Program-made: the position numbers and the translations under genes | Notes under the pieces: generated by a model | Databases searched by the model: none | Seen by the model: the letters and a program-made list of their open reading frames with translations, nothing else | What the model was told of the DNA's origin: nothing | Origin: Deltaproteobacteria bacterium | GTDB taxonomy: Bacteria; Desulfobacterota; G020345765 | Direction: 5' to 3' | DNA length: 42,205 bases | Assembly (NCBI GenBank): GCA_020345765.1 | Contig: CP070770.1 | Location: 2,633,067-2,675,271, forward strand | In this document: piece by piece, positions 6,374 to 40,418 of the stretch | Numbering within the stretch: position 1 is the stretch's first letter | Layout of the letters: each line of letters begins with the position of its first letter

Positions 6374-6374
6374 A

Positions 6375-6644
6375 CTATGATTCCTCCGAAACAACCTGAG
6401 TGACGAATATCGCAAATTCCGGACAGATCAACTCGCACAGGTTACAGTTCACACATTTCTCCCCATCCTTGGCAAAAGGAGGATGGTATCCCTTGACATT
6501 AAATTCCTGGGACAGTTCAAGGACATCCCGGGGACAATACTCAACACAGAACCCGCAGCCTTTGCATCTGTCCTTGACAACATGGATCTCGCCGGGTTGA
6601 ACCTTTAACTCGTCGGCATCAAGTGGCTTGCGCCAGTACTTCAT
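6375..6644 (-). CDS. korD: 2-oxoacid:ferredoxin oxidoreductase, ferredoxin-like delta subunit
   Basis: 89 aa. Two complete [4Fe-4S] motifs are visible, CKGCGFCVEYCP and CVNCNLCELICP, the 2x[4Fe-4S] pattern of KorD. It takes electrons from KorB and passes them on, here possibly to the Hdr-like subunits encoded in the same operon. The start MKYWRKPLD at 6644 is preferred because a GGGAG site lies 9-10 bases upstream; an earlier ATG would add nine residues. First gene of the kor-hdr operon. Confidence 0.92.
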   Translation of the reverse strand: MKYWRKPLDADELKVQPGEIHVVKDRCKGCGFCVEYCPRDVLELSQEFNVKGYHPPFAKDGEKCVNCNLCELICPEFAIFVTQVVSEES

Positions 6645-15832: not shown

Positions 15833-17386
15833 ATGAAAACTGTGGCGGATAAAATAAAAAAACTTGAAGAGTTAGAGTCCAAAGAGCTAAGTATGGGGGG
15901 CGAGAAGGCCGTCCAGAAGCAGAAGGATGCCGGCAAGTTAACCGCCCGGGAAAGACTTGATCTCCTATTTGATGAGGGTTCCTTCACCGAGTTGGACATG
16001 TTCGTGCGCCATCGCTGTAAAGACTTCGGCATGGAAAAGACCGTCGTCCCCGGAGAAGGGGTTGTTACCGGCCATGGAATAGTAGATGGCCGCCTTGTCT
16101 TTGCCTATTCCCAGGACTTTACTGCCCGGGCCGGAACCTTGGGGGAAATGCACTCCAAGAAGATCTGTAAGGTTATGGACCTTGCAATGAAGGCCGGGGC
16201 CCCGGTCGTGGGGATGAATGATTCCGGGGGTGCGAGGATCCAGGAGGGTGTCGACGCCTTATCCGGATACGGAAACATTTTTTTCCGCAACTCCTGTGCT
16301 TCCGGAGTAATCCCCCAAATTAGTGCGATTATGGGGCCTACCGCCGGAGGGGCAGTTTATTCTCCCGCAATGACCGATTGGATCTTCATGGTGAAAAAAA
16401 CCAGCTACATGTTCATTACCGGTCCGGAGGTCATCAAATCGGTTACCGGCGAAGAGATCAATTTTGAGGACCTTGGTGGGGCAATGACCCATAACACCAG
16501 AAGCGGTGTCGCCCATTTTGCCTGCGAGAGCGATACCGATGCGATCAACCAGATCCGGGAACTGCTGAGCTACCTGCCCTCCAACAATATGGAGGAACCG
16601 CCGGTGAAAGACCTCGGGGACGATCCGGAGCGGGAGGAGACCATGCTTGACGAAATCATCCCGGACAACCCCAAGGCCAGCTACGACATTAAGGATGTAA
16701 TCAGGTCGATCGTCGATAAGAGGCAGATCTTCGAGCCCCATGAGCACTACGCCCAGAATATCATTATCGCTTTTACCCGCTTCAACGGGCGCACGGTAGG
16801 GATAATCGCCAACCAACCCAATGTGCTTGCCGGCTGTCTGGATGTAAATGCCTCGGACAAGGCCACCCGTTTCATCCGCTTCTGCGATGCCTTCAATATC
16901 CCCTTGCTAACGATTTCCGACGTGCCCGGATATCTGCCGGGGTCAAACCAGGAATGGGCCGGGATTATCCGGCACGGGGCGAAGCTCTTGTGGTGTTACT
17001 CCGAGGCCACGGTGCCGAAAATTACCCTTGTAACCCGGAAGGATTACGGCGGCTCCTACCTCGCCATGTGCGGCCGGGAACTGGGAGCGGACTATGTATT
17101 GGCCTGGCCTTCCGCGGAGATTGCAGTAATGGGTGCAGAAGGAGCCTCAAATATTATCTTCCGCAAAGATATTAAGGAAGCCGAAGACCCCAAGGCCAAA
17201 CTCCAGGAAAAGATCCAGGAATACGAGGAGCTTTTCGCCAATCCCTACGTAGCGGCCTCCCGGGGCTTTATTGATGCGGTCATTCGCCCCCGGGAGACCC
17301 GGAGAAGAATAATCAATGCCCTGAATATCTTACTGAACAAACGGGAAAGCCGGCCGCCGAAAAGGCACGGGAACATCCCGGTTTAG
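15833..17386 (+). CDS. mmdA: Methylmalonyl-CoA decarboxylase alpha / acyl-CoA carboxyltransferase subunit
   Basis: 517 aa, the usual length. Family blocks are GKLTARERLDLLFDEGSF, DSGGARIQEGVDALSGYG, GPTAGGAVYSPAMTDW, FITGPEVIKSVTGE, and in the second half DVPGYLPGSNQE, KDYGGSYLAMC and GAEGASNIIF. These give the two crotonase-like halves that bind acyl-CoA and biotin. It moves the carboxyl group between (S)-methylmalonyl-CoA and biotin. With the divergent beta, delta and carrier genes this forms a complete Na+-pump decarboxylase; running backwards, or with a biotin carboxylase, it could carboxylate propionyl-CoA. GGAG lies upstream of the ATG. First gene of a plus-strand operon reaching at least sucD. 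Confidence 0.93.
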   Translation: MKTVADKIKKLEELESKELSMGGEKAVQKQKDAGKLTARERLDLLFDEGSFTELDMFVRHRCKDFGMEKTVVPGEGVVTGHGIVDGRLVFAYSQDFTARAGTLGEMHSKKICKVMDLAMKAGAPVVGMNDSGGARIQEGVDALSGYGNIFFRNSCASGVIPQISAIMGPTAGGAVYSPAMTDWIFMVKKTSYMFITGPEVIKSVTGEEINFEDLGGAMTHNTRSGVAHFACESDTDAINQIRELLSYLPSNNMEEPPVKDLGDDPEREETMLDEIIPDNPKASYDIKDVIRSIVDKRQIFEPHEHYAQNIIIAFTRFNGRTVGIIANQPNVLAGCLDVNASDKATRFIRFCDAFNIPLLTISDVPGYLPGSNQEWAGIIRHGAKLLWCYSEATVPKITLVTRKDYGGSYLAMCGRELGADYVLAWPSAEIAVMGAEGASNIIFRKDIKEAEDPKAKLQEKIQEYEELFANPYVAASRGFIDAVIRPRETRRRIINALNILLNKRESRPPKRHGNIPV

Positions 17387-17420
17387 TGAGAATTAACCTA
17401 AATACATATAAGGAGTATTT

Positions 17421-19094
17421 ATGGCTGATAAAAATGACCTGAAGAAAATTCGCAAAGAAATGGACGAATGGGAAGGAAAGCTTGCCGAGACATTGAAAAA
17501 GCGTCCGGAGCGCAAGCCCTCTTTTGTCAACACCTCGGGGATTCCCCTGAACCGAACCTATACCCCGCTGGATATGGAAGAAGCTGACTATCTTGCCGAT
17601 CTGAATTTCCCCGGGGACTATCCTTTCACCCGGGGGGTTCAGCCGACCATGTATCGGGGCCGGCACTGGACGATGCGTCAGTATGCCGGGTTCGCTACCG
17701 CTGAGGAGACCAACCGGCGATACCGTTATCTCCTGGAAAAGGGTCAGACCGGTCTCTCGGTGGCATTTGATCTCCCCACCCAGATCGGTTACGACTCCGA
17801 CCACCCCCTGAGCCAGGGGGAGGTGGGAAAGGTAGGGGTGGCTATCGATTCGGTTCGGGACATGGAAGCCCTGTTTGACGGTATCCCCTTGGATAAGGTC
17901 AGCACCTCGATGACCATCAATGCCCCGGCCGCTATTCTTCTCGCAATGTATATTGTGATAGCGGAAAAGCAGGGGGTCACACCGGATAAACTTAACGGGA
18001 CGATCCAGAACGATATCCTGAAAGAATACACCTCCCGGGGTACATATATATTCCCTCCTGAGTCGTCAATGCGGATCATCACCGATACCTTTGCCTACTG
18101 CTCGGAAAGTGTCCCTAATTGGAACACCATCTCCATATCCGGGTATCACATGAGGGAAGCGGGGTGCACTGCAGTTCAGGAATTGGCATTTACCTTGGCT
18201 AATGGCATTGCTTATATAGATGCGGCCATCAAGGCTGGTCTGGATGTGGATACCTTTGCCCGCCGGGTTTCCTTCTTCTTTATCTCCCAACAGGACTTCT
18301 TTGAGGAAATTGCCAAATTCCGGGCGGCCCGCCGTCTCTGGGCCCGGATAATGAAGGAACGCTTCGGGGCCAAGAAGCCGGCAAGCTGGATGCTGCGCTT
18401 TCATGTTCAGACCGCCGGGTCCTCGCTTACCGCCCAGCAGCCGGACAACAATGTCGTCCGGGTGGCCTTTCAGACACTTTCTGCCGTCCTGGGCGGAACC
18501 CAGTCGCTCCACTCATGTTCACGGGACGAGGCCCTGGCCCTTCCCTCGGAGGAGGCGGTCCGGCTTTCACTGCGCACCCAGCAGCTCATTGCCCATGAAA
18601 CCGGAGTTACCGATGTAGTCGACCCGTTAGGGGGCTCGTATTATATTGAGCAGCTCACGGATGAGGTCGAACGCCGGGCGGAGGAGTATATCGAAAAGAT
18701 CGACAAGATGGGTGGTGCGGTCAAGGCAACCGAGAAGGGATATATCAATAAAGAGATCGAGGAGAGTGCCTACCAGTATCAGAAAGGGGTTGAGGACAAA
18801 TCCCGGATCGTTGTGGGGGTAAACGATTTCGTCGAGGAGGAAGAGGAAAAACCTGCCGACCTGCTCAAAGTGGACCCGACCGTCGGGGAAAGCCAGAAGG
18901 CCAAGTTAAAGGAACTCCGTTCCTCGAGGGACCAGAGCAAGGTCGAAAGCTCTTTAAAAGACCTGAAGAAAGCGACGGAAAACAAGAAAGAAAACCTCCT
19001 CCCCCATTTTGTGAATTCAGTTCGCTCCGAGGCCACCCTGGGCGAGATCTGCGATACCCTGCGGGAGGTTTTTGGGGAATACCAAGCGGCTTAA
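17421..19094 (+). CDS. mcmA: Methylmalonyl-CoA mutase, catalytic large subunit
   Basis: 557 aa, containing only the acyl-CoA-binding TIM-barrel part. Typical blocks are [87 protein letters not shown] and [10 protein letters not shown]. It converts (R)-methylmalonyl-CoA to succinyl-CoA reversibly, using adenosylcobalamin held by the separate small subunit encoded next. The split form occurs in archaea and many anaerobes. A 34-base gap follows mmdA. A 10-bp imperfect hairpin (19102-19132) lies in the gap to mcmB. Confidence 0.96.
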
Positions 19095-19170
19095 ATAATC
19101 GATTGCAGGTTGTTGATTTCAGAACCTACAATTTAAAATCCAAAATCTATATTGGAAACAGGAGAGGAAG

Positions 19171-19557
19171 ATGATAAAAGTATTAATGGCTAAGCCCGGG
19201 TTGGACGGGCACGACCGGGGAGCGAAGGTAGTCGCCCGGGCACTGCGGGATGCGGGGATGGAGGTGATCTATACCGGACTGCGGCAGACCCCGGAGCAGA
19301 TCGTGGAGGCGGTAATCCAGGAAGATGTGCAGGTTCTTGCATTGAGTATACTGTCCGGCGCCCAAGACTACCTGTTCCCCCGGATTATCGAGCTTCTGAA
19401 AGAAAAGAAAATCAAAGATGTCCTGGTCGTGGCGGGCGGTATATTCCCCTCGGAGGATGTCCCGAAATTAGAGAAGATGGGGATTACCGGGCTCTTTGGA
19501 CCGGGAACTACCACCGGCGATATTATTAATTTTATCCAGGACAAAGTAAAAAAATAA
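19171..19557 (+). CDS. mcmB: Methylmalonyl-CoA mutase, cobalamin-binding small subunit
   Basis: 128 aa. [18 protein letters not shown] holds the DxHxxG cobalamin motif with the lower axial His. SILSGAQ and [11 protein letters not shown] complete the B12-binding Rossmann fold. It supplies adenosylcobalamin to McmA. AGGAG lies ahead of the ATG. Confidence 0.96.
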
Positions 19558-19603
19558 ATTCCTCCCGGATATTGTTCGGGCTAAGAAAGAGAAAGGAGAA
19601 ACC

Positions 19604-20008
19604 ATGAAGACATTAATCGTCGATCATATCGGGGTTGCCGTTAAAAGCATCGAGGATGCGAAACGGATTTATCAAGACTTTCTGGGATTAAAGGTTGCTG
19701 AAGTCGAGGAGGTCCCGGACCAAAAGGTTAAGGTTGCCTTCATCCCGGTAGGGGAAAGCGAAGTTGAGCTGCTGGAATCCACCTCCCCGGACGGTCCGGT
19801 TGCTAAATTCATCGAATCCCGGGGCGAAGGGGTCCAGCACATTGCTTTCCGGGTGGATAACATCGAGTCCGCCCTCCAGGAGCTCAAGGATAAAGGGGTC
19901 CGGCTCATCGACCAGACCCCCCGGAAGGGAGCCGGCGGCGCCAAGATTGCCTTCATTCACCCCAAAGAGACCGGCGGGGTGTTAATAGAAATATCGGAAA
20001 GAGGATAA
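19604..20008 (+). CDS. mce: Methylmalonyl-CoA epimerase
   Basis: 134 aa. Two VOC/glyoxalase-fold repeats are visible: [14 protein letters not shown] (metal-binding His8) and [18 protein letters not shown], ending [12 protein letters not shown] with the metal-binding Glu. It interconverts (S)- and (R)-methylmalonyl-CoA between decarboxylase and mutase. AAGGAG precedes the start. The stop codon is directly abutted by the fumarase ATG. Confidence 0.95.
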
Positions 20009-20848
20009 ATGAGAGAAATAGAGGCAAATAAGATCACCGCCCAGGTAAAACGACTGTGCATGGAGGCCAACTACGACCTGGGAGAGGATGTGCTCAAGGC
20101 CTTTAAGGACTATTACGCTGCCGAGGAGTCTCCTGCGGGCAAGGAGATCCTGGAGCAATTGATCGAGAACGCCCGGATCGCCACGGATGAAAAAACCCCA
20201 ATCTGTCAGGATACCGGGCTGGCGATATTATTTATTGAACTGGGCCAGGACGTCCATTTAGTCGGTGGGGATCTCAACGAGGCCGTCCAGGAAGGAGTGC
20301 GCCAGGGATACCAGGAAGGTTATCTCAGGAAATCCTCCTGCCACCCCTTCACCAGGAAAAACCTGGGAGACAACACACCCGCGATAATCCATATCGAGCT
20401 GGTTCCCGGCGACAAGATCAACATCAAGTTCGCCCCCAAGGGGGGTGGTTCCGAGAACATGAGTCGGGTAGTGATGTTGACTCCCGCGGTTGGCCGCCAG
20501 GGAGTAATTGACTATGTCGTCAACCTGATAAAGGAATCCGGCTCCAACCCCTGCCCTCCCACGGTAGTCGGGGTGGGGATTGGGGGCACCTTTGAGCGGG
20601 CGGCCTATATTGCCAAGAAGGCACTGCTCCGCCCGATCGGAAGTAAAAACCCGGATCCCGAATTAGCCCAGATGGAAGAAGAGATCCTGGAAAAGATTAA
20701 TAAACTAGGGATCGGTCCGCAGGGATTGGGAGGCAGAACGACCTCGTTAGCCGTCCATGTGGATCTCGTCCCCTGCCACATTGCCAGCCTGCCATTAGCA
20801 GTAAATGTCCAATGCCACGCCGCCCGACACAAGGAAGTGACTATTTAA
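20009..20848 (+). CDS. fumA: Class I fumarase, alpha (N-terminal) subunit
   Basis: 279 aa. It shows the Fe-S hydro-lyase N-terminal domain: TPICQDTGLAILF (Cys66), SSCHPFTRKNLGDNTP, GGGSENMSR, NPCPPTVVGVGIGG (Cys182), and NVQCHAARH (Cys269) at the end. The three cysteines Cys66, Cys182 and Cys269 are the expected ligands of the oxygen-sensitive [4Fe-4S] cluster. With the beta subunit it interconverts fumarate and malate. A tartrate dehydratase is the main alternative; the pathway context favours fumarase. Confidence 0.93.
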   Translation: MREIEANKITAQVKRLCMEANYDLGEDVLKAFKDYYAAEESPAGKEILEQLIENARIATDEKTPICQDTGLAILFIELGQDVHLVGGDLNEAVQEGVRQGYQEGYLRKSSCHPFTRKNLGDNTPAIIHIELVPGDKINIKFAPKGGGSENMSRVVMLTPAVGRQGVIDYVVNLIKESGSNPCPPTVVGVGIGGTFERAAYIAKKALLRPIGSKNPDPELAQMEEEILEKINKLGIGPQGLGGRTTSLAVHVDLVPCHIASLPLAVNVQCHAARHKEVTI

Positions 20849-20887
20849 TCGAAATCAGCAAGGTAAATTAATCGAGAAGGAAATACC

Positions 20888-21445
20888 ATGCCTGAAACAA
20901 TTAAGCTGACTACACCGCTCTCCGACCAGGATGTAGAAAAACTGAGGATCGGGGATAAAGTCTCCCTTAATGGAGTCATTTACACCGGCCGTGATGCCGC
21001 CCACAAAAGGTTGTTCGATCTGCTGGACCAGGGTGAATCCCTGCCCATCGACATCAAGGGTCAAATCATTTACTATGTGGGACCGAGCCCGGCCAAACCG
21101 GGCCAGGCGATCGGCTCCGCCGGTCCGACCACCAGCTACCGGATGGATACCTACTCCCCGAAATTAATGAGTGTCGGGCTCAAGGGAATGATTGGCAAGG
21201 GGAACCGGGGCCAGGAAGTAATCGACGCCATGGTCAAATACAAGGCAGTCTATTTTGCCGCCGTGGGGGGGGCCGGGTCTCTCATTGCGAAGGCAATCAA
21301 AAAATCCGAGATAGTCGCCTATGAGGACCTGGGGCCGGAGGCAATCCGGAAGCTGGAGGTGGAAGATTTCCCAGTAATAGTCGTCAATGACACTCGGGGT
21401 GAAGACCTTTACCAGAAAGGCGTGGAGCAGTACCGCCGGGAATAG
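20888..21445 (+). CDS. fumB: Class I fumarase, beta (C-terminal) subunit
   Basis: 185 aa. TRYTGRDAAHKR-type motif (here YTGRDAAHKRLFDLL), YYVGPSPAKPGQAIGSAGPTT, MIGKGNR and GGAGSLIAKAIK are the family blocks of the fumarate hydratase C-terminal domain. It contributes the second half of the substrate site. It follows the alpha subunit after a 39-base gap with a GAAGGAA ribosome site. Confidence 0.94.
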   Translation: MPETIKLTTPLSDQDVEKLRIGDKVSLNGVIYTGRDAAHKRLFDLLDQGESLPIDIKGQIIYYVGPSPAKPGQAIGSAGPTTSYRMDTYSPKLMSVGLKGMIGKGNRGQEVIDAMVKYKAVYFAAVGGAGSLIAKAIKKSEIVAYEDLGPEAIRKLEVEDFPVIVVNDTRGEDLYQKGVEQYRRE

Positions 21446-21454
21446 CAGGAAACG

Positions 21455-22615
21455 ATGAAGATCCACGAATATCAGGCAAAACGGCTTCTGAAAGAGTTCG
21501 ATATCCCCGTCCCCGAGGGGGAAGTCGCTGAAACCCCGGAGCAGGCCCGGAAGATTGCTGAGAAATTAGGCGCCGGGAAGATGGTGGTAAAGGCCCAGAT
21601 CCATGCGGGCGGGCGGGGCAAAGGAGGGGGAATAAAGGTGGCCAGCACTCCGGAGGAAGCGGAAAAGTTGTCCGGTCAGATAATTGGAATGAAACTGGTT
21701 ACCCCCCAGACCGGACCGGAGGGGAAACAGGTCCGTAAGGTTCTACTGGAAGAGGGAATTAGTATCAAAAAGGAGCTTTATCTGGGGATCACGATCGACC
21801 GGGCCGCCTGCTGTCCGATGATTGTCGCCTCGGAGGCCGGGGGGATGGAGATCGAGGAGGTCGCCCGGTCTACGCCGGATAAGATTCTGAGGGAACAGGT
21901 GGATCCTATTCTGGGCCTGCGCGGCTTTCAGACCCGTAAGCTGGCCTATGGGCTGGGGCTGGAACAAGCAGTAATTAAGCAGGCGGCACCATTAATCAGC
22001 AACCTTTATCGGCTTTTCCATAATAAAGATGCCTCCCTGGCCGAGATCAATCCTCTGGTTATCACTGAAGATGACAGGCTTCTAGCCCTGGATGCCAAGG
22101 TTGACCTCGACGACAGCGGCCTTAACCGGCATAAGGAACTCCTCGAGCTGAGAGATCCGAACGAGGAAGAGCCCCTGGAGGTAGAGGCCTCGAAGTATAA
22201 TCTTAACTATATTAAGCTTGATGGCTCTGTCGGCTGTCTGGTCAACGGGGCAGGACTGGCCATGGCGACGATGGACCTGATCAAGCAGGTCGGGCTGGAG
22301 CCGGCGAACTTCCTTGATGTGGGCGGTCAGGCCTCGGCGGAAATGGTGGAAAATGCCTTTCGCATACTGCTCTCCGACGAAAAGGTAAAGGCTGTCCTGA
22401 TTAATATCTTCGGCGGCATCCTGCGCTGTGATACCCTGGCTACCGGTATTGTCGAGGCCGGCCACAAGTTGGAGATCAAGGTCCCGATGGTGATTCGTCT
22501 GGAAGGAACCAATGTCGAGCAGGGGCAGAATATCCTTAACAAATCCGGACTCAACTTCACGGTGGCCGCCGATATGAAGGAAGCTGCCGAAAAGATAGCA
22601 AGTACTCTCAAATGA
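21455..22615 (+). CDS. sucC: Succinyl-CoA synthetase, beta subunit
   Basis: 386 aa, normal length. ATP-grasp N-terminus ([31 protein letters not shown]), [18 protein letters not shown], then the flavodoxin-like CoA-ligase part ([30 protein letters not shown]). It makes ATP or GTP from succinyl-CoA, or the reverse. GGAAAC-type site upstream; the stop overlaps sucD by 4 bases. Confidence 0.96.
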
Positions 22616-23481
22616 GTATTTTAGTTGATAAGAATACCAAGCTTTTAGTGCAGGGGATTACCGGCGGTGAGGGCAGTTTCCATACCAAGCAGATGGTAAG
22701 CTACGGCACCAATGTAGTGGCCGGGGTAACCCCGGGTAAGGGAGGCCATTATGTAGAAGGAGTCCCCGTCTTTAATACCGTAGTCGAGGCAGAAAAAGCC
22801 ACCGGGGCCAATACTTCCGTGATCTTTGTGCCCGCCGCCTTCGCTACGGAAGCCATTCTGGAATCGGCCCACGCCGGCCTGAAACTGGTAGTCTGCATTA
22901 CCGAGAGGATTCCCCCTCAGGACATGATCCCTGCCTATCATTATCTCAAAAAAATCAATACCCGTCTCATCGGCCCCAACTGCCCCGGGATTATCTCCCC
23001 GGGTAAATGTAAGGTCGGGATTATGCCCGGCCATATCCATAAGGAGGGTGGAATCGGTGTGATCTCCAGGTCGGGAACACTTACCTACGAGGCGGTAAAA
23101 CAGCTTACCGACCTTGGGGTAGGCCAATCTACCTGTATCGGTATTGGGGGAGATCCCATAATCGGCTCCTCTTTTGTCGACCTTCTCAGGCTTTTTAACC
23201 AGGATAAGCAGACTAAAGGGGTAGTAATTATCGGTGAGATCGGCGGGAGTGAGGAGGAAAAGGCCGCCGAATACATTAAAGGGGAGTTCAAGAAGCCGGT
23301 AGTGGCATTTATTGCCGGGCAGACCGCTCCCCCGGGCAGAAGGATGGGACATGCCGGGGCGATCATTGCCGGTGGTAAGGGAACCGCAAAGGAAAAGATC
23401 GCTGCCTTGCGTGCTGCCGGAGTAAATGTCGCCAGTAGCCCGGTGGATATCGGGCAGAGAATGAAAGAAGCCCTATCGTAA
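22612..23481 (+). CDS. sucD: Succinyl-CoA synthetase, alpha subunit
   Basis: 289 aa. [14 protein letters not shown] and [14 protein letters not shown] bind Co[12 protein letters not shown] is conserved, and [10 protein letters not shown] contains the phosphorylated His247. The overlap with sucC (ATGA) couples translation and subunit ratio. Probable last core gene of the mmdA operon. A 66-base gap with a bulged inverted repeat (23482-23524, GGTAGG/CCTACC and ATGATC/GATCAT) follows. Confidence 0.96.
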
Positions 23482-31068: not shown

Positions 31069-31098
31069 AAAAAAAGGGCCGACACAGGTGTCGGCCCC
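31068..31098 (-). terminator. Strong intrinsic terminator of the malic enzyme-sdh-thiolase operon
   Basis: GGGCCGACA and TGTCGGCCC form a perfect stem of 9 bp or more (31076-31097), followed on the minus strand by seven T. It lies about 25 bases after the thiolase stop. Confidence 0.85.
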
Positions 31099-31121
31099 TA
31101 CCTACTAATTATTCAGCTTTA

Positions 31122-32324
31122 TCAAACACCGTATTTGCCGATAATCGCCACACTGCAGATGTTCATAAACGGGAACCCGCCCAGGTTATGGGTAAGCCCC
31201 AGCTTGGGATCCTTGATCTGCCTTTCCTCGGCCCTCCCGTGGAGCTGGAGATACATCTCGTAGAGCATCCTGAGCCCGGAAGCGCCGATGGGATGCCCGA
31301 AGCACTTCAGTCCCCCGTCCACCTGGCAGGGAACCCCTCCGTCCCGGTCATAGAACCCGTCCATGATGTCCTTGGGGGCCTGTCCCCTTTCGGAAATATG
31401 GAGGTCTTCCATGGTCACCAGCTCGGTGATCGAGAAGCAATCGTGCACCTCCATCATGCTGATCTCTTCCCGGGGTTCCTTAATCCCCGCCTCTTTATAG
31501 GCCTCCGAACTCGCCTTAGAAGTGGTCACGAAATGGTCGCATTCCCAGTCATTATATTGGGCCTCGTACCCATTGCTGAGGGCCAGCTGCAGGGCCTTGA
31601 CGCTTACGAAATCCTTTTTACCCAGATCCTTAGCAATCTCCGGTGTGGTCACAATCGCACAGGCCGATCCGTCGCTCACCCCGCAACAGTCGAAAAGCCC
31701 CAGAGGATGGGCGATGATGGGTGCGTTCAGTATCTGGTCCATGGTAACTGCCTTGCGGAGATGGGCCTTGGGGTTCAGGGCGCCGTTGGCATGGCTCTTG
31801 AAAGACACATGGGCCATGGCTTTCTTGAGCTCTCCGGGATCAATGCCGTATTTCGCGGCATAGCCGGAGGCCAGCATGGCAAAGGAACCCGGTGCAGTAA
31901 CATTGGGCATCCAGAACCGGGCCAGGCTATTTCCGCTACTAGCGGGCAGACCACCGTAACCGGTATCCTTTAGCTTCTCCACCCCCTGGGCCAAGCAGAT
32001 ATCATAAGCCCCGGAGGCCACCGCATAGCAGGCTCCCCGGAAGGATTCGGTGCCGCTGGCACAGAAATTCTCCGTCCGGGTCACCGCAATATTGGGCAAA
32101 CGCAGGGTCATGGGTAAAGAAAGTGCGCTCTTGCCTACATTAACTTCATCCATGCATGTACCTAACCAGGCCGCTTGAATATCCTTTTTTTCAATCCCCG
32201 CATCCTTAATACACTCCTCAAAGGCTTCTACCATCAATTCCTCAGACCCGACATCCCATCTTTCACCAAATTTGGTGCAGCCCATGCCGATAATTGCAAC
32301 TTTGTCTTTAATTCCTGTGGCCAT
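31122..32324 (-). CDS. Thiolase (SCP2/acetyl-CoA acetyltransferase-like)
   Basis: 400 aa. ENFCASGTES carries the acylated Cys88, MEVHDCFSITE and CFGHPIGASG the active-site His and Cys blocks. It belongs to the thiolase group that pairs with DUF35/OB-fold proteins, as in archaeal mevalonate synthesis and BbsAB of anaerobic toluene degradation. It should make or cleave a beta-ketoacyl-CoA; the chain is not known. It follows the HMG-CoA synthase-like/DUF35 gene by 14 bases with a GGAGGG site and is last in the operon, before the terminator. Confidence 0.92.
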   Translation of the reverse strand: MATGIKDKVAIIGMGCTKFGERWDVGSEELMVEAFEECIKDAGIEKKDIQAAWLGTCMDEVNVGKSALSLPMTLRLPNIAVTRTENFCASGTESFRGACYAVASGAYDICLAQGVEKLKDTGYGGLPASSGNSLARFWMPNVTAPGSFAMLASGYAAKYGIDPGELKKAMAHVSFKSHANGALNPKAHLRKAVTMDQILNAPIIAHPLGLFDCCGVSDGSACAIVTTPEIAKDLGKKDFVSVKALQLALSNGYEAQYNDWECDHFVTTSKASSEAYKEAGIKEPREEISMMEVHDCFSITELVTMEDLHISERGQAPKDIMDGFYDRDGGVPCQVDGGLKCFGHPIGASGLRMLYEMYLQLHGRAEERQIKDPKLGLTHNLGGFPFMNICSVAIIGKYGV

Positions 32325-32338
32325 GTTACATCCCTCCT

Positions 32339-33793
32339 TTATGCTTGAGCCTGGGGCACGGCTTTCCAGAAGTATGCATGAAAGCCGCGGTCTTCGTCAT
32401 AATATCTTTTGCGGAACGACATCCTTATCGGCTGGCCTACCTTTACCTCGGTCAATTCGCAATCGGTAAAATCGGCCAGCATCCTTCCGCCCCCTTCAAA
32501 TTGGACTATCCCATAGACGGCCGGCGGCTCCTGGGATACCGCCAGCATATCTCCGGTATACGCCACCACCTTTCCATCTCTAGCGGAAAACTCGTAATCT
32601 TCCATTTCGCCAACGGCACCGCAATCGGGTTTAACACATATCTCCGGTTTAGGAAACTGGGGAGTCCCGCACTTCTTGCATTTACCGCCAACCAGGCCAG
32701 TGATCATCTTACGTTTTCTCCACAGGACGGTTATTGCGCTCTGACCACCGGCCTCGGCACGGATACCCATTTCCACCTTTACTAGATCCCGGAACTTGGC
32801 ATATTTCTGATAGTTGTCCAGTTCCTTGCGAATAGCCAGAGAGCCCTTGACGCCCTTATGCTCCTTCAATTTCTTGATCTTGTCGGTAACCTCGAAATAC
32901 ATGGCGTCGCAGCCGTTTCCGAAACTAGCCAGCAGGATCTTGTCGCCCGGCTTGGCCTCCTCCAGGGCCGCAACAAACATGAGCAGGGGATGGGCGGTCC
33001 CGGTCTCCCCGCAAACCTCATGCATATTGTCCTGAAGCTTATCCGGGGGAATCCCGAGTTTCTTGGCAATACCGATATGCTCCCTCTTGAAGAAACAGGG
33101 GTAAACCACCTTGGCGAAGCTGTCAATGGATACATTGCACTTTTTCAGCAGGCCGTTGATCGCCTCCGGAATGATCTTGGAATACCCTTCGTCCCTGACC
33201 CATCTTTCCTCCCACATGTAATCGAACTTATGTCCGGTCCCGCGATAGTGGTCGGCAAAGTCGTAGGATACCGAGTAGGCTCCCTTGAATTCGGCAATGA
33301 CATCCTTATCCCCCAGAAGCAGGGAGGCCGCGCCGTCACCAAACCACATCTCGTAAAAATAGGCCCCTTTCGTCTCCCGGTGATCGGAAGCGGTCACCAT
33401 AATGCTTTTCTTTTCTCCGCTTTGAATTACATCAAAGGCGGTAACCATCGCTGAGGTCCCCGCTTTTAAAGATGATGTGAAGTCGGCGGTCAGAATATCA
33501 TCCCGCAAGTTAAGCGCGGTAGAGACGATCCCGGCATTCTGCCTGTCGGCGTAAGGGAGAGTTGTGGAACATAGATATAGGGCATCTATGTTCTCCTTTT
33601 TCATCCCCACCAGACAATCCCGGGAAGCCTCCACTGCCATACTCAGGGCGTCCTCATCCCAGTTGCACACCGCCTTCTCCCCCTGAGCGACTGCCATTAT
33701 CGCCGGGGCAAACCAGCCCATAGACTGGAAAATGGCCATGCGTGTCAGCCGGAGTCTCGGGATATTGGCCCCGTAAGAAGTAATACCAATCAT
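32339..33793 (-). CDS. HMG-CoA synthase-like protein fused to a DUF35 zinc-ribbon/OB domain
   Basis: 484 aa. Residues 1 to about 335 have the fold blocks of HMG-CoA synthases (GITSYGANIPRLRL, LYLCSTTLPYADRQNAG, SLKAGTSAM, GETGTAHPL, LLASFGNGCDAM). The C-terminal 140 residues hold a DUF35 rubredoxin-like zinc ribbon (CKKCGTPQFP, CVKPDCG) and OB fold (VVAYTGDML, ADFTDCELTEVKVGQPI). The nucleophilic Cys of true synthases (in ACKAGT) is Leu109 here and the catalytic Glu (SESP-like) reads STT, while His in GTAHPL is kept. It is therefore unlikely to be an HMG-CoA synthase; it may support or channel substrate to the adjacent thiolase. GGAGGG precedes the ATG. Confidence 0.85.
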   Translation of the reverse strand: MIGITSYGANIPRLRLTRMAIFQSMGWFAPAIMAVAQGEKAVCNWDEDALSMAVEASRDCLVGMKKENIDALYLCSTTLPYADRQNAGIVSTALNLRDDILTADFTSSLKAGTSAMVTAFDVIQSGEKKSIMVTASDHRETKGAYFYEMWFGDGAASLLLGDKDVIAEFKGAYSVSYDFADHYRGTGHKFDYMWEERWVRDEGYSKIIPEAINGLLKKCNVSIDSFAKVVYPCFFKREHIGIAKKLGIPPDKLQDNMHEVCGETGTAHPLLMFVAALEEAKPGDKILLASFGNGCDAMYFEVTDKIKKLKEHKGVKGSLAIRKELDNYQKYAKFRDLVKVEMGIRAEAGGQSAITVLWRKRKMITGLVGGKCKKCGTPQFPKPEICVKPDCGAVGEMEDYEFSARDGKVVAYTGDMLAVSQEPPAVYGIVQFEGGGRMLADFTDCELTEVKVGQPIRMSFRKRYYDEDRGFHAYFWKAVPQAQA

Positions 33794-33886: not shown

Positions 33887-34588
33887 TCAGAACTGCCCGC
33901 CCACCAGGGCCCGTTTAAGTGCCGATATCGCCTTGGTGGGATTCAGCGACTTGGGGCATGCCTCCACACAGTTGAAGATGGTGTGGCATCTCCAGAGCCC
34001 GTGGCGGTTATCCACGAGCTTAAGGCGTTCCGCCTTGCCCTCGTCACGGCTGTCGGCAACAAATCTGTTCACCTTGAGAAACGCATGCGGGCCGAGATAC
34101 TCCCCATCCGCCCAGAACGACGGGCAGGAGGAGGTGCAGGAGCCGCAGATTATGCACTCGTAAAGACCGTCGAGCTTCTTATTCTCTTCGGGTGACTGGA
34201 GACGCTCGTGATCGGACGGCGGCGGGCCCTTTTCGATGAAATAAGGTTTTATCTCCAAAAGCTTCGTATAGATCGGCTCCATATCAACAATCAGGTCTTT
34301 GATAACCCTCAGGTGTCGAAGCGGCTCCACGACGAACTCCGATTTAAGGGTGGCAAGCTGGGTCTCGCAGGCCAGGCGGTTGACCCCGTCAATGGTCATG
34401 GCGCAGGAGCCGCAGATCCCGTGGCGGCAGGACCTCCGGTAACTGAGGGAACCGTCCCGGTACCACTTGATCTCATTCAGTGCGTCAAGGACGGTCCACC
34501 CTTCCTGTGCCTCGATGCTATAGCGCTCCTGATGCGGTTTCTCGTCCTGCTCCGGGTTAAAGCGTAATATCGTCACGGTATATTTCAT
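33887..34588 (-). CDS. sdhB: Succinate dehydrogenase/fumarate reductase iron-sulfur subunit
   Basis: 233 aa. RRSCRHGICGSCAM and the following Cys bind the [2Fe-2S] cluster. CIICGSCTSSCPSFW binds [4Fe-4S] and the CHTIFNCVEACPKSLNP block provides the remaining ligands including the [3Fe-4S] site. It relays electrons from the flavin to the quinone site in the membrane. It follows sdhA by 24 bases. Operon order sdhC-sdhD-sdhA-sdhB. Confidence 0.96.
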   Translation of the reverse strand: MKYTVTILRFNPEQDEKPHQERYSIEAQEGWTVLDALNEIKWYRDGSLSYRRSCRHGICGSCAMTIDGVNRLACETQLATLKSEFVVEPLRHLRVIKDLIVDMEPIYTKLLEIKPYFIEKGPPPSDHERLQSPEENKKLDGLYECIICGSCTSSCPSFWADGEYLGPHAFLKVNRFVADSRDEGKAERLKLVDNRHGLWRCHTIFNCVEACPKSLNPTKAISALKRALVGGQF

Positions 34589-34612: not shown

Positions 34613-36415
34613 TCAGTAAACCCGTGCCTTCGGTTTGAACCGGGTGATGGTAACGGGTTTATAATCGAAGCGGATCCCCTCTTCTATCTTTAAAGCCAGC
34701 GTGTGCTTAAGCCAGTTGGTATCATCCCGCTCCTTGAAATCGGTCCGGGCATGGGCGCCCCGGCTCTCCTTTCGGTTAATCGCCCCGGCGACAATCGCCT
34801 CGGTAAAATCCAATTGGTAACCGAACTCAATCGCCTCGACAACCTCGGTATTGAAGCACCTGCTCCTGTCCTTGATCCCGATATTCCGGTAACGCTCCTG
34901 GCAATCCTTCACCGTTTCCAGAAGTGAGTTAAGATCCTTTTCATTACGGAAAACACCGCACTTGGCCATCATCTCTTCCTGCAGCCTTTTCCGCAGGTCG
35001 GCGACTTTCTCCTCGCCCTTGGCACCCAATAGCCGTTCTAACATCTTGAGGTCCTGCTCAGCCACCTCCTCGGGCATTTCGTTAAAAGGCAAGCCTTTAA
35101 CCTCCCGGGCCAGCGCCAACCCTGCCCTCCTGCCGTAAAGCGCCGCCTCCAAGAGGGAATTCGTCCCCAACCGATTCGCCCCGTGCACGCTGACGCAGGC
35201 ACATTCACCCGCCGCAAAGAGTCCTTTCAGTACCTCGCCCTTTCCATCGGCAAGGACACGGCAGTCCAGGTCGGTAGGAATCCCGCCCATCGAATAATGG
35301 GCCGTAGGCTGAATTGGGATCGGTGCCTCGTTTACATCAACCCCGGCAAATTTCGAGACCACCTCGGCGATTTGGGGAAGCCGCTCCTTGATTTTCTCCG
35401 CTCCGAGATGACGGACATCCAGGTTGACATATCCTTTACCGCCGATCCCCCTTCCCTCATTAATCTCCGTCTGAATCGCCCTGCTGATCACATCCCGGGG
35501 AGCAAGCTCCATCTTCTCGGGAGCGTATTTCTCCATAAACCTCTCACCCTCATCGTTAACGAGATATCCCCCTTCCCCCCGGGCACCTTCGGTAATCAGG
35601 ATCCCGTGCGGGTAGAGACCGGTTGGATGGAACTGAACAAACTCCATATCCTCCAATGGAATACCGACCCTCATTGCCAGCCCCAGACCGTCTCCGGTAT
35701 TGGCAAATGAGTTTGAGGTAATACTGAATACCCGGCCGTAACCCCCCGTTCCCAAGAGTACCGCCCGGGCGTGGAAGATATGAACCTCGCCGGTAGCCAT
35801 ATCCAGGGCGACAATACCCCGGCACACCTTATCCTTCACGATCAGGGAAAGGGCAAGGTATTCCGAGTAGAACCTGACCTGGTGTTTAACGCACTGCTCC
35901 CAGAGGGTATGGAGTAAGACATGCCCGGTCCGGTCGGCAGCATAGCAGGCCCTGAGCACCGGCCCTCCTTTGCCGAAATCCTTCGTATGCCCCCCGAACT
36001 TCCGCTGGGCGAGCCGGCCGCCCTCAGTCCGGCTGAAGGGGCACCCCATATGCTCGAAGCCTCGGACAACACTGGAGGCCTCCCGCACCAGGATCTCGAT
36101 AGCGTCTTGATCCCCCAGGTAGTCGCTCCCCTTGACGGTATCGAACATGTGCCATTCCCAGTGGTCTTCCTCTTGATTGGCCAGGGAGGCGGCAATACCA
36201 CCCTGGGCCGCCCCGGAATGCGATCGGGTGGGGAAGAGCTTCGTAACCACCCCCACATCTCCTATCTTCGCCGCCTCAAGCGCACCGCTGAGGGCGGCCA
36301 GACCGGCCCCGACTACCAACACATCATGCCGGTGGACATTATGGAGTGGAACCCCCCGGGGCTCATGGAGCTTCTCCGCTTCCGCTTCATTCCGGTAACC
36401 CTCGGATTCAGACAT
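34613..36415 (-). CDS. sdhA: Succinate dehydrogenase/fumarate reductase flavoprotein subunit
   Basis: 600 aa. [12 protein letters not shown] binds [13 protein letters not shown] contains His66 for covalent FAD attachment, and [21 protein letters not shown] and [13 protein letters not shown] complete the active site. It interconverts succinate and fumarate on the inner face of the membrane. An extra 28-residue N-terminus precedes the FAD domain. Direction depends on the quinone and cell redox state. Confidence 0.97.
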
Positions 36416-36444: not shown

Positions 36445-36804
36445 TTATTTCCCCGGAAACGGGATGACTGTAATCGCCCCCATGGTAAACAGTACAATCC
36501 CACCGATACTGAGGACAAAGAACACCGCGACCCTCATCCAGTTTTTATTCAGATAATCTCCGGCGATGAGCCAGAGGCCATAGAGTCCGTGAGTGAGTGC
36601 CAGGGTCAGGAAAGTAAGGTCGATCACCTTCCAGTAGGGTGTCGAAAGCCGGGCAACGACCCGATTGTAATTTACCTCACCTCCCCCGCCAAAATGGAGC
36701 ACCAAGAAGTGGAGGAGGATGAGCAGGGCAATAGTTATCCCGGAAACCCGCTGAAACAGCCAGCCGGATGCCCCGCCCGAGTTTACCTGCGCGCTTTGAT
36801 CCAT
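36445..36804 (-). CDS. sdhD: Succinate dehydrogenase membrane anchor, second small subunit
   Basis: 119 aa from the ATG at 36804; an upstream start would overlap sdhC. Three membrane helices with FQRVSGITIALLILLHFLVLHF and THGLYGLWLIAGDYL, whose His residues suit heme b ligation. It anchors SdhAB and forms part of the quinone site. The ribosome site is weak. Confidence 0.88.
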   Translation of the reverse strand: MDQSAQVNSGGASGWLFQRVSGITIALLILLHFLVLHFGGGGEVNYNRVVARLSTPYWKVIDLTFLTLALTHGLYGLWLIAGDYLNKNWMRVAVFFVLSIGGIVLFTMGAITVIPFPGK

Positions 36805-36838
36805 TTGTATTGTTTTACCTATCCCTAAACACAGGATT

Positions 36839-37192
36839 TTAATGAAAAAAGCCGTAGGCACCAAGCCCGAGGGCAATAATACCAATTGCAACCAGAGCCC
36901 AGAAGGTAATTTTCTGGGCCTTGAGCTCCACGGTCCAGCCTAAGTCGACCAGGACGATCCGGATACCGTTCAGGGTATGATAGAGGATAACCCCGAAGAG
37001 CCCCAATTCGCCGAATTTAAATAGGGGTGAAGTCACAAATTCCATCAGGGCATCGAACTCCTCGGGACCCCGTTGAATATGGTGGATTACCCAGGTATGG
37101 AGCACCAGATAGGAGATCAATGCCATCCCGCTGAGGCGGTGAAGTATCCAGGCCCAGGTCCCGGTATGCCACCGATAATGTCTAATCACCAT
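36839..37192 (-). CDS. sdhC: Succinate dehydrogenase cytochrome b556-type membrane subunit
   Basis: 117 aa with three membrane helices. ILHRLSGMALISYLVLHTWVIHH is the SdhC signature region (it spans two adjacent motifs, HRLSG and LHTW), and YHTLNGIRIVLVD holds the likely heme b ligand His. With SdhD it is a two-anchor, heme-containing complex II. It begins 15 bases after the malic enzyme stop, so it belongs to that operon. Confidence 0.92.
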   Translation of the reverse strand: MVIRHYRWHTGTWAWILHRLSGMALISYLVLHTWVIHHIQRGPEEFDALMEFVTSPLFKFGELGLFGVILYHTLNGIRIVLVDLGWTVELKAQKITFWALVAIGIIALGLGAYGFFH

Positions 37193-37207: not shown

Positions 37208-38551
37208 TTATTCTTCCGGTAACTGGATAAACCCCTGCTTCTGGAGAGAATCCGTTTCATCCCTTGCCTTCTTGATGATACTCGAAGCTTTCGCTATCAG
37301 CTCATCTCTCGTCATCTTCACCCGGGCTATCCCCTGCTCGATTGCCTTCAGGCCAACGGCTGCTGCCTCGCGGGGATAGACCTCCCAATCGGCCATAGTG
37401 GGGATCAGGCTGTCTTCACTGAGCCCCTTCTCCTCTGCGCACAGGGCGAGCTCATCCGCCGCAGCAATGCACATCTCGTCGGTTATCGTTTTGGCCATAA
37501 CATCCAGGGTGCCCCGGAAGATGCCCGGGAATCCGAGGGAATTATTAACCTGGTTGGGAAAATCGGAGCGTCCGGTGGCCACCACCCTTGCTCCGGCCTC
37601 TTTCGCCTCCCAGGGCCAGATCTCCGGGATCGGATTGGCACAGACGAATACGATTGCATCATTGTTCATCGAGGAGATCCACTCCTTCTTGATTGTATCC
37701 GGCCCTGGTTTGGACAAGGCAATACAGACATCCGCTCCCTTCATCGCCTCCGGGATGCCTCCCTTACGGCCCTCGGAATTGGTCCTCTGGGCAAAATCCC
37801 ATTTCTCCGGGTAATCGGGCATAAGCTCCTTCCGGTCTGGGTGGAGGATCCCCTTTGAATCCACCATACACATATTACCGGGCTCCGCCCCGGCCGCAAT
37901 CAGTACCCGGGCAATACATATATTAGCTGCCCCGGTCCCGATCATTGAGATCTTGACCTTGTCCATATCCTTGCCGACAATTTTGAGGGCATTTTTCAAA
38001 CCCGCAAGGGTAACCGTAGCCGTGCCCTGTTGGTCGTCGTGCCAGACCGGGATGGTCATCTCCTCGCGCAGGGTATCGAGAATCTTGAAGCACTTGGGAT
38101 GCGCAATATCTTCCAGGTTGATACCTCCGAATGACGGTGTAAGCCACTTGACCGCCTTTATGATCTCATCAGCATTCTTGGTGCCTAAGCAGATCGGGAC
38201 CGCATCCACTCCACCTAAGTATTTGAATAGTAAAGCTTTTCCTTCCATGACCGGTAGCCCCGCCTCGGGTCCGATGTCCCCCAGGCCTAAAACCCGGGTT
38301 CCGTCGCTTACGACCGCAACGAAATTCCATTTATTGGTATGCTCGAAAACCTTCTCCGGGTTCTGTTGGATATCTTTACAGGGCTGGGCTACACCGGGGG
38401 TGTACCAGATAGCGAAGTCATTAAAGTCCCGGATACAGCTTTTCGGCAGCACCTCTATCTTGCCCCGGTAGAACGGATGGAGTTTCATCGCATCCTTACC
38501 CGGCTTCTCCGCCTTTTTCAGAAGCTCTTCCTTCGTGAGCTTTTTACCCAT
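37208..38551 (-). CDS. NAD(P)-dependent malic enzyme
   Basis: 447 aa, the size of the short bacterial malic enzymes without the phosphotransacetylase tail. IWYTPGVAQPC contains the catalytic Tyr, GDIGPEAGLPVMEGKA the Lys region, GINLEDIAHP and PVWHDDQQGTA the metal site, and GTGAANICIARVL the nucleotide-binding fold; ATGRSDFPNQVNNSLGFPG is typical. It interconverts malate with pyruvate plus CO2, closing the propionate-to-pyruvate route with fumarase and SDH. It is the first gene of the sdh operon. GGGAGG lies 8 bases before the ATG. Confidence 0.95.
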   Translation of the reverse strand: MGKKLTKEELLKKAEKPGKDAMKLHPFYRGKIEVLPKSCIRDFNDFAIWYTPGVAQPCKDIQQNPEKVFEHTNKWNFVAVVSDGTRVLGLGDIGPEAGLPVMEGKALLFKYLGGVDAVPICLGTKNADEIIKAVKWLTPSFGGINLEDIAHPKCFKILDTLREEMTIPVWHDDQQGTATVTLAGLKNALKIVGKDMDKVKISMIGTGAANICIARVLIAAGAEPGNMCMVDSKGILHPDRKELMPDYPEKWDFAQRTNSEGRKGGIPEAMKGADVCIALSKPGPDTIKKEWISSMNNDAIVFVCANPIPEIWPWEAKEAGARVVATGRSDFPNQVNNSLGFPGIFRGTLDVMAKTITDEMCIAAADELALCAEEKGLSEDSLIPTMADWEVYPREAAAVGLKAIEQGIARVKMTRDELIAKASSIIKKARDETDSLQKQGFIQLPEE

Positions 38552-38611: not shown

Positions 38612-38629
38612 TGAATGAGTATTCATTCA
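38612..38629. promoter_or_regulatory. FadR (TetR-family)-like operator
   Basis: TGAATGAGTATTCATTCA is an 18-bp palindrome (7-bp arms) that matches the consensus TGAATGAnTAnTCATTCA described for the Bacillus fatty-acid regulator FadR. It lies 5 bases downstream of the predicted -10 of the malic enzyme promoter, where a bound repressor would block initiation. No matching regulator gene is in the window. Confidence 0.7.
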
Positions 38630-38634
38630 CAGAA

Positions 38635-38663
38635 TCAATAACACACCGGTTTTAAGCTGTCAA
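38635..38663 (-). promoter_or_regulatory. Promoter of the malic enzyme-sdhCDAB-thiolase operon
   Basis: On the minus strand TTGACA (38658-38663), 17-base spacer, TATTGA (38635-38640). The -35 is perfect; the -10 is weak. It was chosen with the operator position in mind. Confidence 0.55.
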
Positions 38664-38711
38664 GAACTTTTTAACCCACGTTAATACATCTGATATTAAG
38701 AGACATTAAAC

Positions 38712-38739
38712 TTGACTTCCTTTATTTGCCTGCTATAAT
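38712..38739 (+). promoter_or_regulatory. Strong sigma-70 promoter of the Na+/phosphate transporter gene
   Basis: TTGACT (38712-38717), 16-base spacer, perfect TATAAT (38734-38739). The ATG follows only 8 bases after the -10, so the transcript should start at or next to the start codon. Confidence 0.75.
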
Positions 38740-38747
38740 CCGACCAT

Positions 38748-40418
38748 ATGGGCAAGCAGTTAATATTCGAGCTTGTAGGAGGAATCGGGTTTTTCCTGTT
38801 CGGGATGAAGCTGATGTCGGAGGGACTGCGCAAGGTAGCCGGGGAACGACTGAAACGGATCCTGGAACTACTGACCAAGAAGCCGATTACCGGCTTACTG
38901 GTTGGGGCCGCGGTCACCGCCCTGATCCAGAGCAGCAGCGGTACCTCCGTAATGGTGGTAGGTCTGGTTAATGCCGGTCTGCTTACGCTGAAGCAGGCCA
39001 TCAGTGTCGTGCTGGGGGCAAATATCGGTACGACGGTGACCGCCTGGCTGGTTTCCTTTCTGGCAATATTCAAGATTACCAATTACGCCCTCCCTGCCGT
39101 CGGAATCGGTTTCCTCCTCGCAACCCTCGGAAAGACCAGAACTTCAAAGCTCTGGGGAGAGGTCCTGCTTGGTCTTGGCATACTCTTTATCGGCATCCAC
39201 TTTATGAAAGAAGCATTTGCCCCCCTGGAAGAAAGCCCTCAGGTCAAGGAATTGTTTGTCAATTTCAGCCGCTACCCTATCTTAGGGGTCCTGGTAGGAA
39301 CGATCATCACCATGATGCTTCAGAGCAGCAGTGCCACGATTGCCCTTGTCCAGGTTCTTGCCTTTCAGGGCCTGATCAGTTTTGAGGCGGCCATTCCCTT
39401 AATCCTGGGGGATAATATCGGAACCACGATTACTGCCCAGATTGCTTCGATCGGCACTAATGCTTCTGCCCGCCGGACCGCCATGGCTCATACCTTGTTC
39501 AATGTAATCGGAGCCTGCTATATGTTGATCTTTGTTTATTTGGGCATCTATGTCAAGGCAATCGACTTTATAATCCCCGGGCCGATAACTCCCGGTAACA
39601 TCATGTTCCATATTGCCGTTGCTCATAGCATCTTTAATATCTTCAATGCAATTATTGTGTTCCTGCCTTTAATAAGTTGGCTGGAAAGGATCTCGATTAA
39701 GATGGTTCCGGGGAAGCCGGAGGTAGCTGAGGCCACTCCCCAATACCTGGAAAGACATCTTCTGGATACCCCGATGGTTGCTCTTGAGCAGGCCACCAGG
39801 GAGATAATTCGAATGGGTCGTATAGCCCAACAGGCCATGAATGATGCCATGGATGGTTTTTTTGCCGATGATCCCAAGGCTCTCTCACGAGTGGCCCCGA
39901 GGGAGGAGGCCGTAGATAATCTCCAGAAGGAGATCACCCGGTATTTAGTCGAACTCTCGCAAAAGAACTTAAGTATGGAGGAATCAGAAAAGCTTCCGGT
40001 ACTCCTCCATACGGTTAATGACATTGAGAGGATCGGCGACCATTCGGAAAATTTGGTGGAACTGGGAACCCGGAAGATTGAGCAGAAGTTACCCTTTACT
40101 CCCCAGGCCATTACTGAGATAAGGAAGATGTATGAGGAAGCAAACAATATGCTCAACGAAACAATCGAGGCCCTGGAGAATAATGATTTAGCCCTGGCTA
40201 AACGGGCATTAAAGCGGGAAGAGACCCTCAACCAGTTACATATCGAGCTGCGTCAGAATCATGTCCAGCGGCTCAATGACGGAACCTGCCAGCTTCTCCC
40301 TGGCTTAGTCTTCCTCGACTATGTGGCTAACCTGGAAAAGGTTGGGGATCACCTGACCAACATCGCTCAGGCGATCATGGGTGGTCTCCGCTGGGACGGC
40401 TTCCCCCGAGAGGCTTAG
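38748..40418 (+). CDS. Na+/phosphate cotransporter with PhoU-like C-terminus
   Basis: 556 aa. Two inverted Na/Pi-cotransporter repeats carry the QSSS motifs (LIQSSSGTSVMVVGLVNAG, MLQSSSATIALVQVLAFQG) and the paired GANIGTTVTA and GDNIGTTITA loops. About eight membrane helices span residues 1-310. The last 200 residues form a helical PhoU-like domain (ERIGDHSENLVELG, EKVGDHLTNIAQAI). It belongs to the NptA/YjbB family that imports phosphate with Na+ or acts in export. A Na+-coupled transporter fits a cell with a Na+-pump decarboxylase. No ribosome binding site is visible. Confidence 0.93.
   Translation: MGKQLIFELVGGIGFFLFGMKLMSEGLRKVAGERLKRILELLTKKPITGLLVGAAVTALIQSSSGTSVMVVGLVNAGLLTLKQAISVVLGANIGTTVTAWLVSFLAIFKITNYALPAVGIGFLLATLGKTRTSKLWGEVLLGLGILFIGIHFMKEAFAPLEESPQVKELFVNFSRYPILGVLVGTIITMMLQSSSATIALVQVLAFQGLISFEAAIPLILGDNIGTTITAQIASIGTNASARRTAMAHTLFNVIGACYMLIFVYLGIYVKAIDFIIPGPITPGNIMFHIAVAHSIFNIFNAIIVFLPLISWLERISIKMVPGKPEVAEATPQYLERHLLDTPMVALEQATREIIRMGRIAQQAMNDAMDGFFADDPKALSRVAPREEAVDNLQKEITRYLVELSQKNLSMEESEKLPVLLHTVNDIERIGDHSENLVELGTRKIEQKLPFTPQAITEIRKMYEEANNMLNETIEALENNDLALAKRALKREETLNQLHIELRQNHVQRLNDGTCQLLPGLVFLDYVANLEKVGDHLTNIAQAIMGGLRWDGFPREA

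Follow-up and report, generated by a model that had tools for sequence, protein, structure and literature searches.

A predicted FadR-type operator at a malic enzyme–succinate dehydrogenase–thiolase operon of a deltaproteobacterium, and the regulon to which it appears to belong

Which regulator governs an operon that joins malic enzyme, succinate dehydrogenase (SDH) and a thiolase, and what would such control be good for? The window (the whole 42,205-nt stretch of DNA that was analysed) carries this operon on its minus strand at 38551-31122. The seven genes are separated by gaps of no more than 93 bp and are followed by a terminator-like hairpin.

37208..38551, minus strand: malic enzyme, 447 aa, first gene of the operon (Pfam PF00390/PF03949)
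36839..37192, minus strand: SdhC, SDH cytochrome b subunit (TIGR02970, 96.1 bits, cut-off 52.3)
36445..36891, minus strand: SdhD, SDH membrane anchor; start codon uncertain, as the listed ORF overlaps sdhC (TIGR02968, 48.5 bits, cut-off 41.8)
34613..36415, minus strand: SdhA, SDH flavoprotein (TIGR01816, 812 bits, cut-off 727)
33887..34588, minus strand: SdhB, SDH iron-sulfur subunit (NF004616, 323 bits, cut-off 228)
32339..33793, minus strand: fusion of an HMG-CoA-synthase-like domain with a DUF35/ChsH2-type zinc-ribbon OB domain (Pfam PF01796, PF12172, PF08541)
31122..32324, minus strand: thiolase of the PRK06157-type acetyl-CoA acetyltransferase family (NF004810, 702 bits, cut-off 403)
31074..31099, minus strand: terminator-like hairpin at the operon end (sequence scan)

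The best PDB relatives of the HMGS/DUF35 fusion (32339-33793) were 5m3k (PhlA/PhlB) and chains I and E of 6esq, an archaeal thiolase–HMGCS–DUF35 complex. Its segment TSSLKAGTS, which we take to cover the position of the HMG-CoA synthase cysteine, seemingly lacks that residue, as does PhlA in the alignment.

An earlier note had placed an 18-bp palindrome fitting the Bacillus FadR consensus at the predicted transcription start of these seven genes. Both the operon structure and the promoter geometry agree with that placement, and the fit to the consensus is exact.

38612..38629, minus strand: FadR-type operator, TGAATGAATACTCATTCA when read along the operon strand, at about +1 to +18 of the predicted transcript; one of a genome-wide set
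38635..38640, minus strand: -10-like element TATTGA, preceded by the extended -10-like TGTG (by-eye alignment with other FadR-type promoters)
38658..38663, minus strand: -35 element TTGACA, 17-nt spacer (read by eye)

The 18-mer TGAATGAGTATTCATTCA at 38612-38629 has no mismatches to TGAATGANTANTCATTCA, and no other stretch of the 42-kb window comes within one mismatch of TGAATGANNNNTCATTCA; dinucleotide shuffles gave an expectation of 0.01. The 7-bp arms of the 18-mer, TGAATGA-N4-TCATTCA, are perfectly complementary, and its centre, GTAT, falls short of full symmetry. An nTAn centre is not a rule in this genome, being present in 3 of the 6 sites with exact arms. The Bacillus FadR consensus and operon order, including a fadR gene adjoining etfBA, were reportedly described by Fujita and co-workers in 2007.

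Read along the minus strand, TTGACA (38663-38658) is followed by 17 nt, TATTGA (38640-38635), 5 nt, the operator and, 60 nt further on, the malic enzyme ATG at 38551. The operator begins 5 bp past the -10 hexamer and therefore covers the predicted transcription start, a placement at which a bound repressor would block the promoter and which recurs in similar form at most sites. The promoter hexamers were picked by eye; owing to the weak -10 element, a simple promoter scan missed this promoter. The divergent Na/Pi transporter gene (38748-40418, plus strand) is preceded by a separate promoter-like pair (38712-38739), at a distance from the operator.

The genome-wide search that the earlier note had proposed revealed a family of such sites, with beta-oxidation and related genes among the targets. 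The window lies on a 3.42-Mb scaffold that is 85% complete. Exact TGAATGA-N4-TCATTCA occurs six times in this genome (G000), against 0.012 expected from composition, and four more sites have one mismatch, for a total of 10; a reversed-pattern control gave 0 in both cases. Matches with two or three mismatches were left out of the count, since the reversed pattern yields about half as many. Nearly all sites lie just upstream of genes, and we assigned the following targets.

Malic enzyme–SDH operon (window)
Formate–tetrahydrofolate ligase (FTHFS)
FolD
Acyl-CoA dehydrogenase
Thiolase
SCP2/response regulator/enoyl-CoA hydratase operon
Cytochrome c
Molybdopterin oxidoreductase
Set of response regulator–GcvH-like, Fe-S and CCG-domain proteins; the least secure assignment, with 409 bp between site and genes
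Complex-I-like operon with a cytochrome c3 gene first

Downstream of one site, L021:4315-7423 (minus strand) encodes two proteins that combine a response regulator with a GcvH-like part, one of which also has Fe-S clusters, and a CCG-domain protein adjoins them. Of the 10 sites, 8 have an exact TTGACA within an upstream slot of 21 bp (background, 0.5%), and this geometry of TTGACA and operator is repeated in most relatives. The sites at FolD, thiolase and the enoyl-CoA hydratase operon are present both here and in the genus-mate G001. In relatives, the beta-oxidation genes that carry sites also include etfBA, MaoC and 3-hydroxyacyl-CoA dehydrogenase.

The identity of the regulator is suggested by the relatives. 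G001 has a fadR-etfBA operon, in which a TetR gene with etfB and etfA behind it is immediately preceded by an exact site. Residues 7-193 of this G001 protein align full-length with residues 6-191 of B. subtilis FadR (3whb; E = 1.8e-39), and 1vi0 was also matched. The recognition segment reads VADGTIYLYFKSKDDIL in G001 FadR and VADGTIYLYFKNKEDIL in B. subtilis FadR, with VADGTIYLYF common to both. We then used a profile built from six such proteins to seek FadR-type genes in 38 relatives. The palindrome lies just upstream of all 11 of the best-scoring genes (7 exact, 4 with one mismatch). A FadR-type gene was found in 8/8 relatives with exact sites (in one of which the gene runs off a contig end), versus 5/30 of those without (Fisher p = 2.6e-5). 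Three one-mismatch hits in G001 (TGAAGGAAGGATCATTCA) represent a single repeated sequence and were left out of the site count.

The earlier note had also suggested a search for a TetR gene bearing the same site. Such genes were found in the relatives but not in the window's own assembly, where three TetR genes (T1, T2 and T3) are present and the palindrome is upstream of none. The same note would have abandoned its reading if the genome had no FadR homolog and orthologous operons no site, and at first look neither was found. The missing homolog is probably explained by the assembly. The search for a FadR orthologue in this gapped assembly was negative, and its etfBA, which matches that of G001 at 85%, is interrupted near the start of etfB by exactly 100 N (at about G000:C1:3124980-3125080); the G001 fadR lies immediately beyond that point. 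Because the gap sits where G001 has fadR and such 100-N runs are frequent in the scaffold, we favour incomplete assembly as the reason for the absence, and from the gap and the genus-mate we infer that fadR is probably present in this genome.

These results largely bear out the interpretation of the palindrome as a FadR-type operator: there is a family of sites, fadR genes have the palindrome upstream, and sites and genes occur together. We put the probability at roughly 0.8 that it is the operator of a TetR repressor of the B. subtilis FadR type, acting at the start of the malic enzyme–sdhCDAB–HMGS/DUF35–thiolase operon. When acyl-CoA is absent, a FadR dimer on the operator would block RNA polymerase; homology suggests that long-chain acyl-CoA would release it.

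Such control would make metabolic sense in combination with other genes of the window.

15833-17386, plus strand: carboxyltransferase
17421-19557, plus strand: methylmalonyl-CoA mutase
3805-6415, minus strand: 2-oxoacid:ferredoxin oxidoreductase

The first two belong to a complete-looking operon (15833-23481, plus strand) for carboxyltransferase, the large and B12 subunits of the mutase, an epimerase-like protein, fumarase alpha and beta, and both subunits of succinyl-CoA ligase, SucC and SucD. The malic enzyme–SDH operon would supply the steps from succinate to fumarate and from malate to pyruvate. It would thereby complete a route for odd-chain or branched fatty acids from propionyl-CoA through succinate, fumarate, malate and pyruvate to acetyl-CoA. 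Control of SDH and malic enzyme by acyl-CoA appears reasonable because odd-chain and branched fatty acids yield propionyl-CoA. A scan of the window found no FadR-type site at the methylmalonyl-CoA operon, so the proposed pathway would be only partly under FadR-type control. Upstream of that operon lies a tandem duplicate of a promoter-like unit, with GCCGG(T/C)AATATTACTCTTGACA...TATTATATAAA occurring twice. At 293-6415 (minus strand), the 2-oxoacid:ferredoxin oxidoreductase is followed by FAD/Fe-S, FlpD/MvhD-like and CCG-domain (HdrB/D-like) proteins, a gene set that is possibly an electron-bifurcating module.

The conservation on which the earlier note had counted was not seen at this particular target. 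No site precedes any of the 5 closest malic-enzyme genes among the relatives, and none was found at 80 named loci; the malic-enzyme relatives in named genomes are spread over many phyla, and all are without the site. G001 has no such malic enzyme. This outcome bears on the target and not on the kind of operator, and points to the malic enzyme–SDH operon as a lineage-specific recruit of FadR. The DNA around the operator offers a likely explanation for how it was recruited.

38612..38669, minus strand: promoter-operator cassette, which also occurs at the promoters of FTHFS and acyl-CoA dehydrogenase in this genome (alignment)

Over the 40 bp upstream of the operator, the window's copy matches that of FTHFS at 30/40 positions and that of acyl-CoA dehydrogenase at 26/40, and the latter two match each other at 34/40. 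Shuffled 40-bp pairs had a mean identity of 10.5 and a maximum of 23 (20,000 shuffles). A search with the cassette pattern found three places in the window's genome and one in G001, at a MaoC-type gene, all of them at operators. Since the identity extends into the promoter outside the operator and the cassette is confined to operators, the promoter-operator unit was probably duplicated and so copied to new operons. Copying also fits the absence of the site at malic-enzyme orthologues and the lack of this malic enzyme in G001. Most likely, the malic enzyme–SDH operon came under FadR by gaining a copy of the whole cassette.

The same likeness can be read in a less regulatory sense. Because it spans the promoter (30/40), the cassette might have been copied mainly as a strong promoter, leaving a working FadR operator that is incidental at this operon and regulation that is weak or not dependent on acyl-CoA. 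The orthologous operons and the partner methylmalonyl-CoA operon, all without the site, would fit such an incidental role. However, the operator arms have stayed perfect while a quarter of the flanking promoter has changed, a pattern that selection on the operator would produce, and we regard this possibility as unlikely.

Still less probable, in our judgement, is that the operator belongs to another TetR regulator unrelated to fatty acids, either T1 or one of T2 and T3, which are associated with RND-type operons. The stretch L031:5775-13210, across a 100-N gap from the window, contains T1 (L031:5775-6578), a hydratase-like gene, an OYE/FadH-like flavoenzyme and two OmpP1/FadL-like proteins. 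T1 is attractive in that it starts about 0.5 kb past the window end, in an operon with genes of just these types, and T2 is distantly FadR-like (NF053878, 98 bits, cut-off 200). However, the window's last base abuts the 100-N gap, so the closeness of T1 to the operon is not established, and T1 has no close counterpart in G001, where the sites are kept. Among the 38 relatives, only G012 has a close counterpart of T1 (65%). We rejected T1 for these reasons and because the palindrome is missing from its promoter. Many relatives that have no sites encode T2-like proteins, and T2 was rejected because G001 carries both T2 and a true FadR. T3, which has palindromes of its own with a different sequence, was considered as a PsrA and rejected, as it is only weakly PsrA-like (68.8 bits, cut-off 300) and has no FadR-type palindrome upstream. 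The genes that do have the site upstream in relatives are of the FadR type and not of the T1-T3 types. AT-rich intergenic DNA is prone to palindromes, but a chance origin is refuted by the statistics (expectations of 0.01 for the window and of 0.012 for the genome, which has six exact copies), by the fixed promoter spacing across sites and by the tie between the palindrome and fadR-type genes.

With a FadR-type operator as the preferred reading, comparison with known systems shows what is familiar and what is not. Relative to FadR (YsiA, TetR family) of B. subtilis, the palindrome arms are the same, the G001 regulator is homologous over its full length with a near-identical recognition helix, fadR adjoins etfBA, the operator lies at the promoter and the targets include beta-oxidation genes. 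In contrast, the present genome is anaerobe-like and from another phylum, the NTAN centre is not kept, and the targets include malic enzyme, SDH, FTHFS, FolD, and complex-I-like and molybdopterin enzymes. The kind of regulator is thus known and its regulon is unusual.

The motif of PsrA, another fatty acid regulator, differs from the FadR-type palindrome. The earlier note had called malic enzyme, SDH and thiolase an unusual target set for FadR, which is true relative to Bacillus, although the unrelated PsrA controls sdh in Shewanellaceae (PMC5343134). PsrA is a TetR-family fatty acid repressor that regulates sdh along with further TCA-cycle operons; it is not orthologous, and the consulted part of that paper names no malic enzyme or C1-pathway targets (PMC5343134). 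The TetR-type FadR2 of Desulfococcus multivorans lies beside etfAB in the fatty-acid locus of a sulfate reducer and was detected only in myristate-adapted cells; the consulted part of the source describes no operator or regulon (PMC5109826). The FadR proteins of Thermus thermophilus and Sulfolobus acidocaldarius are TetR-fold fatty-acid repressors, and acyl-CoA frees the Sulfolobus protein from DNA (PMC5597230, PMC6449355). The T. thermophilus motif, TTRNACYNRGTNYAA, is unlike the window's palindrome, and the acyl-CoA response of the archaeal protein is described as convergent (PMC5597230, PMC6449355).

Across the 38 relatives, where targets were assigned by site position and operons and promoters were predicted from sequence, the sites extend well into energy metabolism. 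Exact sites precede F0F1 ATP synthase genes in G014 (L063:7999) and G020 (L066:6189), which belong to two families of the phylum. G004 has sites before cytochrome c3 and Rnf-type genes, the CODH/ACS delta subunit and a NuoE-type gene, and G002 has an exact site with TTGACA upstream of the APS reductase beta subunit gene (L053:8001). Others precede Hdr-type genes (G001) and beta-oxidation genes. Our search of open-licence papers found no link between FadR and the C1 pathway, and no description of a TetR-family FadR fatty acid degradation regulon in Deltaproteobacteria. As far as that literature shows, a FadR regulon that takes in energy metabolism and C1 genes to this extent is new, as is the probable copying of a cassette.

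The control of energy-conserving complexes in fatty-acid-oxidising anaerobes is poorly known. Here, a single computable palindrome would link SDH, malic enzyme, ATP synthase, Rnf and genes of the C1 pathway to acyl-CoA. It allows the predicted regulon to be mapped across many uncultured genomes, and a few DNA fragments and one protein would be enough to check it. The probable copying of a promoter-operator cassette also provides a concrete case of a regulon gaining operons. The distribution of sites suggests that fatty acid supply may control, beyond fat breakdown itself, much of energy metabolism. We tentatively propose, at somewhat less than even odds, that anaerobic fatty-acid energy metabolism in this phylum may have FadR as its master switch. 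Besides beta-oxidation, acyl-CoA would then set acetyl-CoA and C1 metabolism, SDH, ATP synthase and ion-pumping complexes, as well as sulfate reduction in some lineages, and the regulon would grow by the copying of cassettes.
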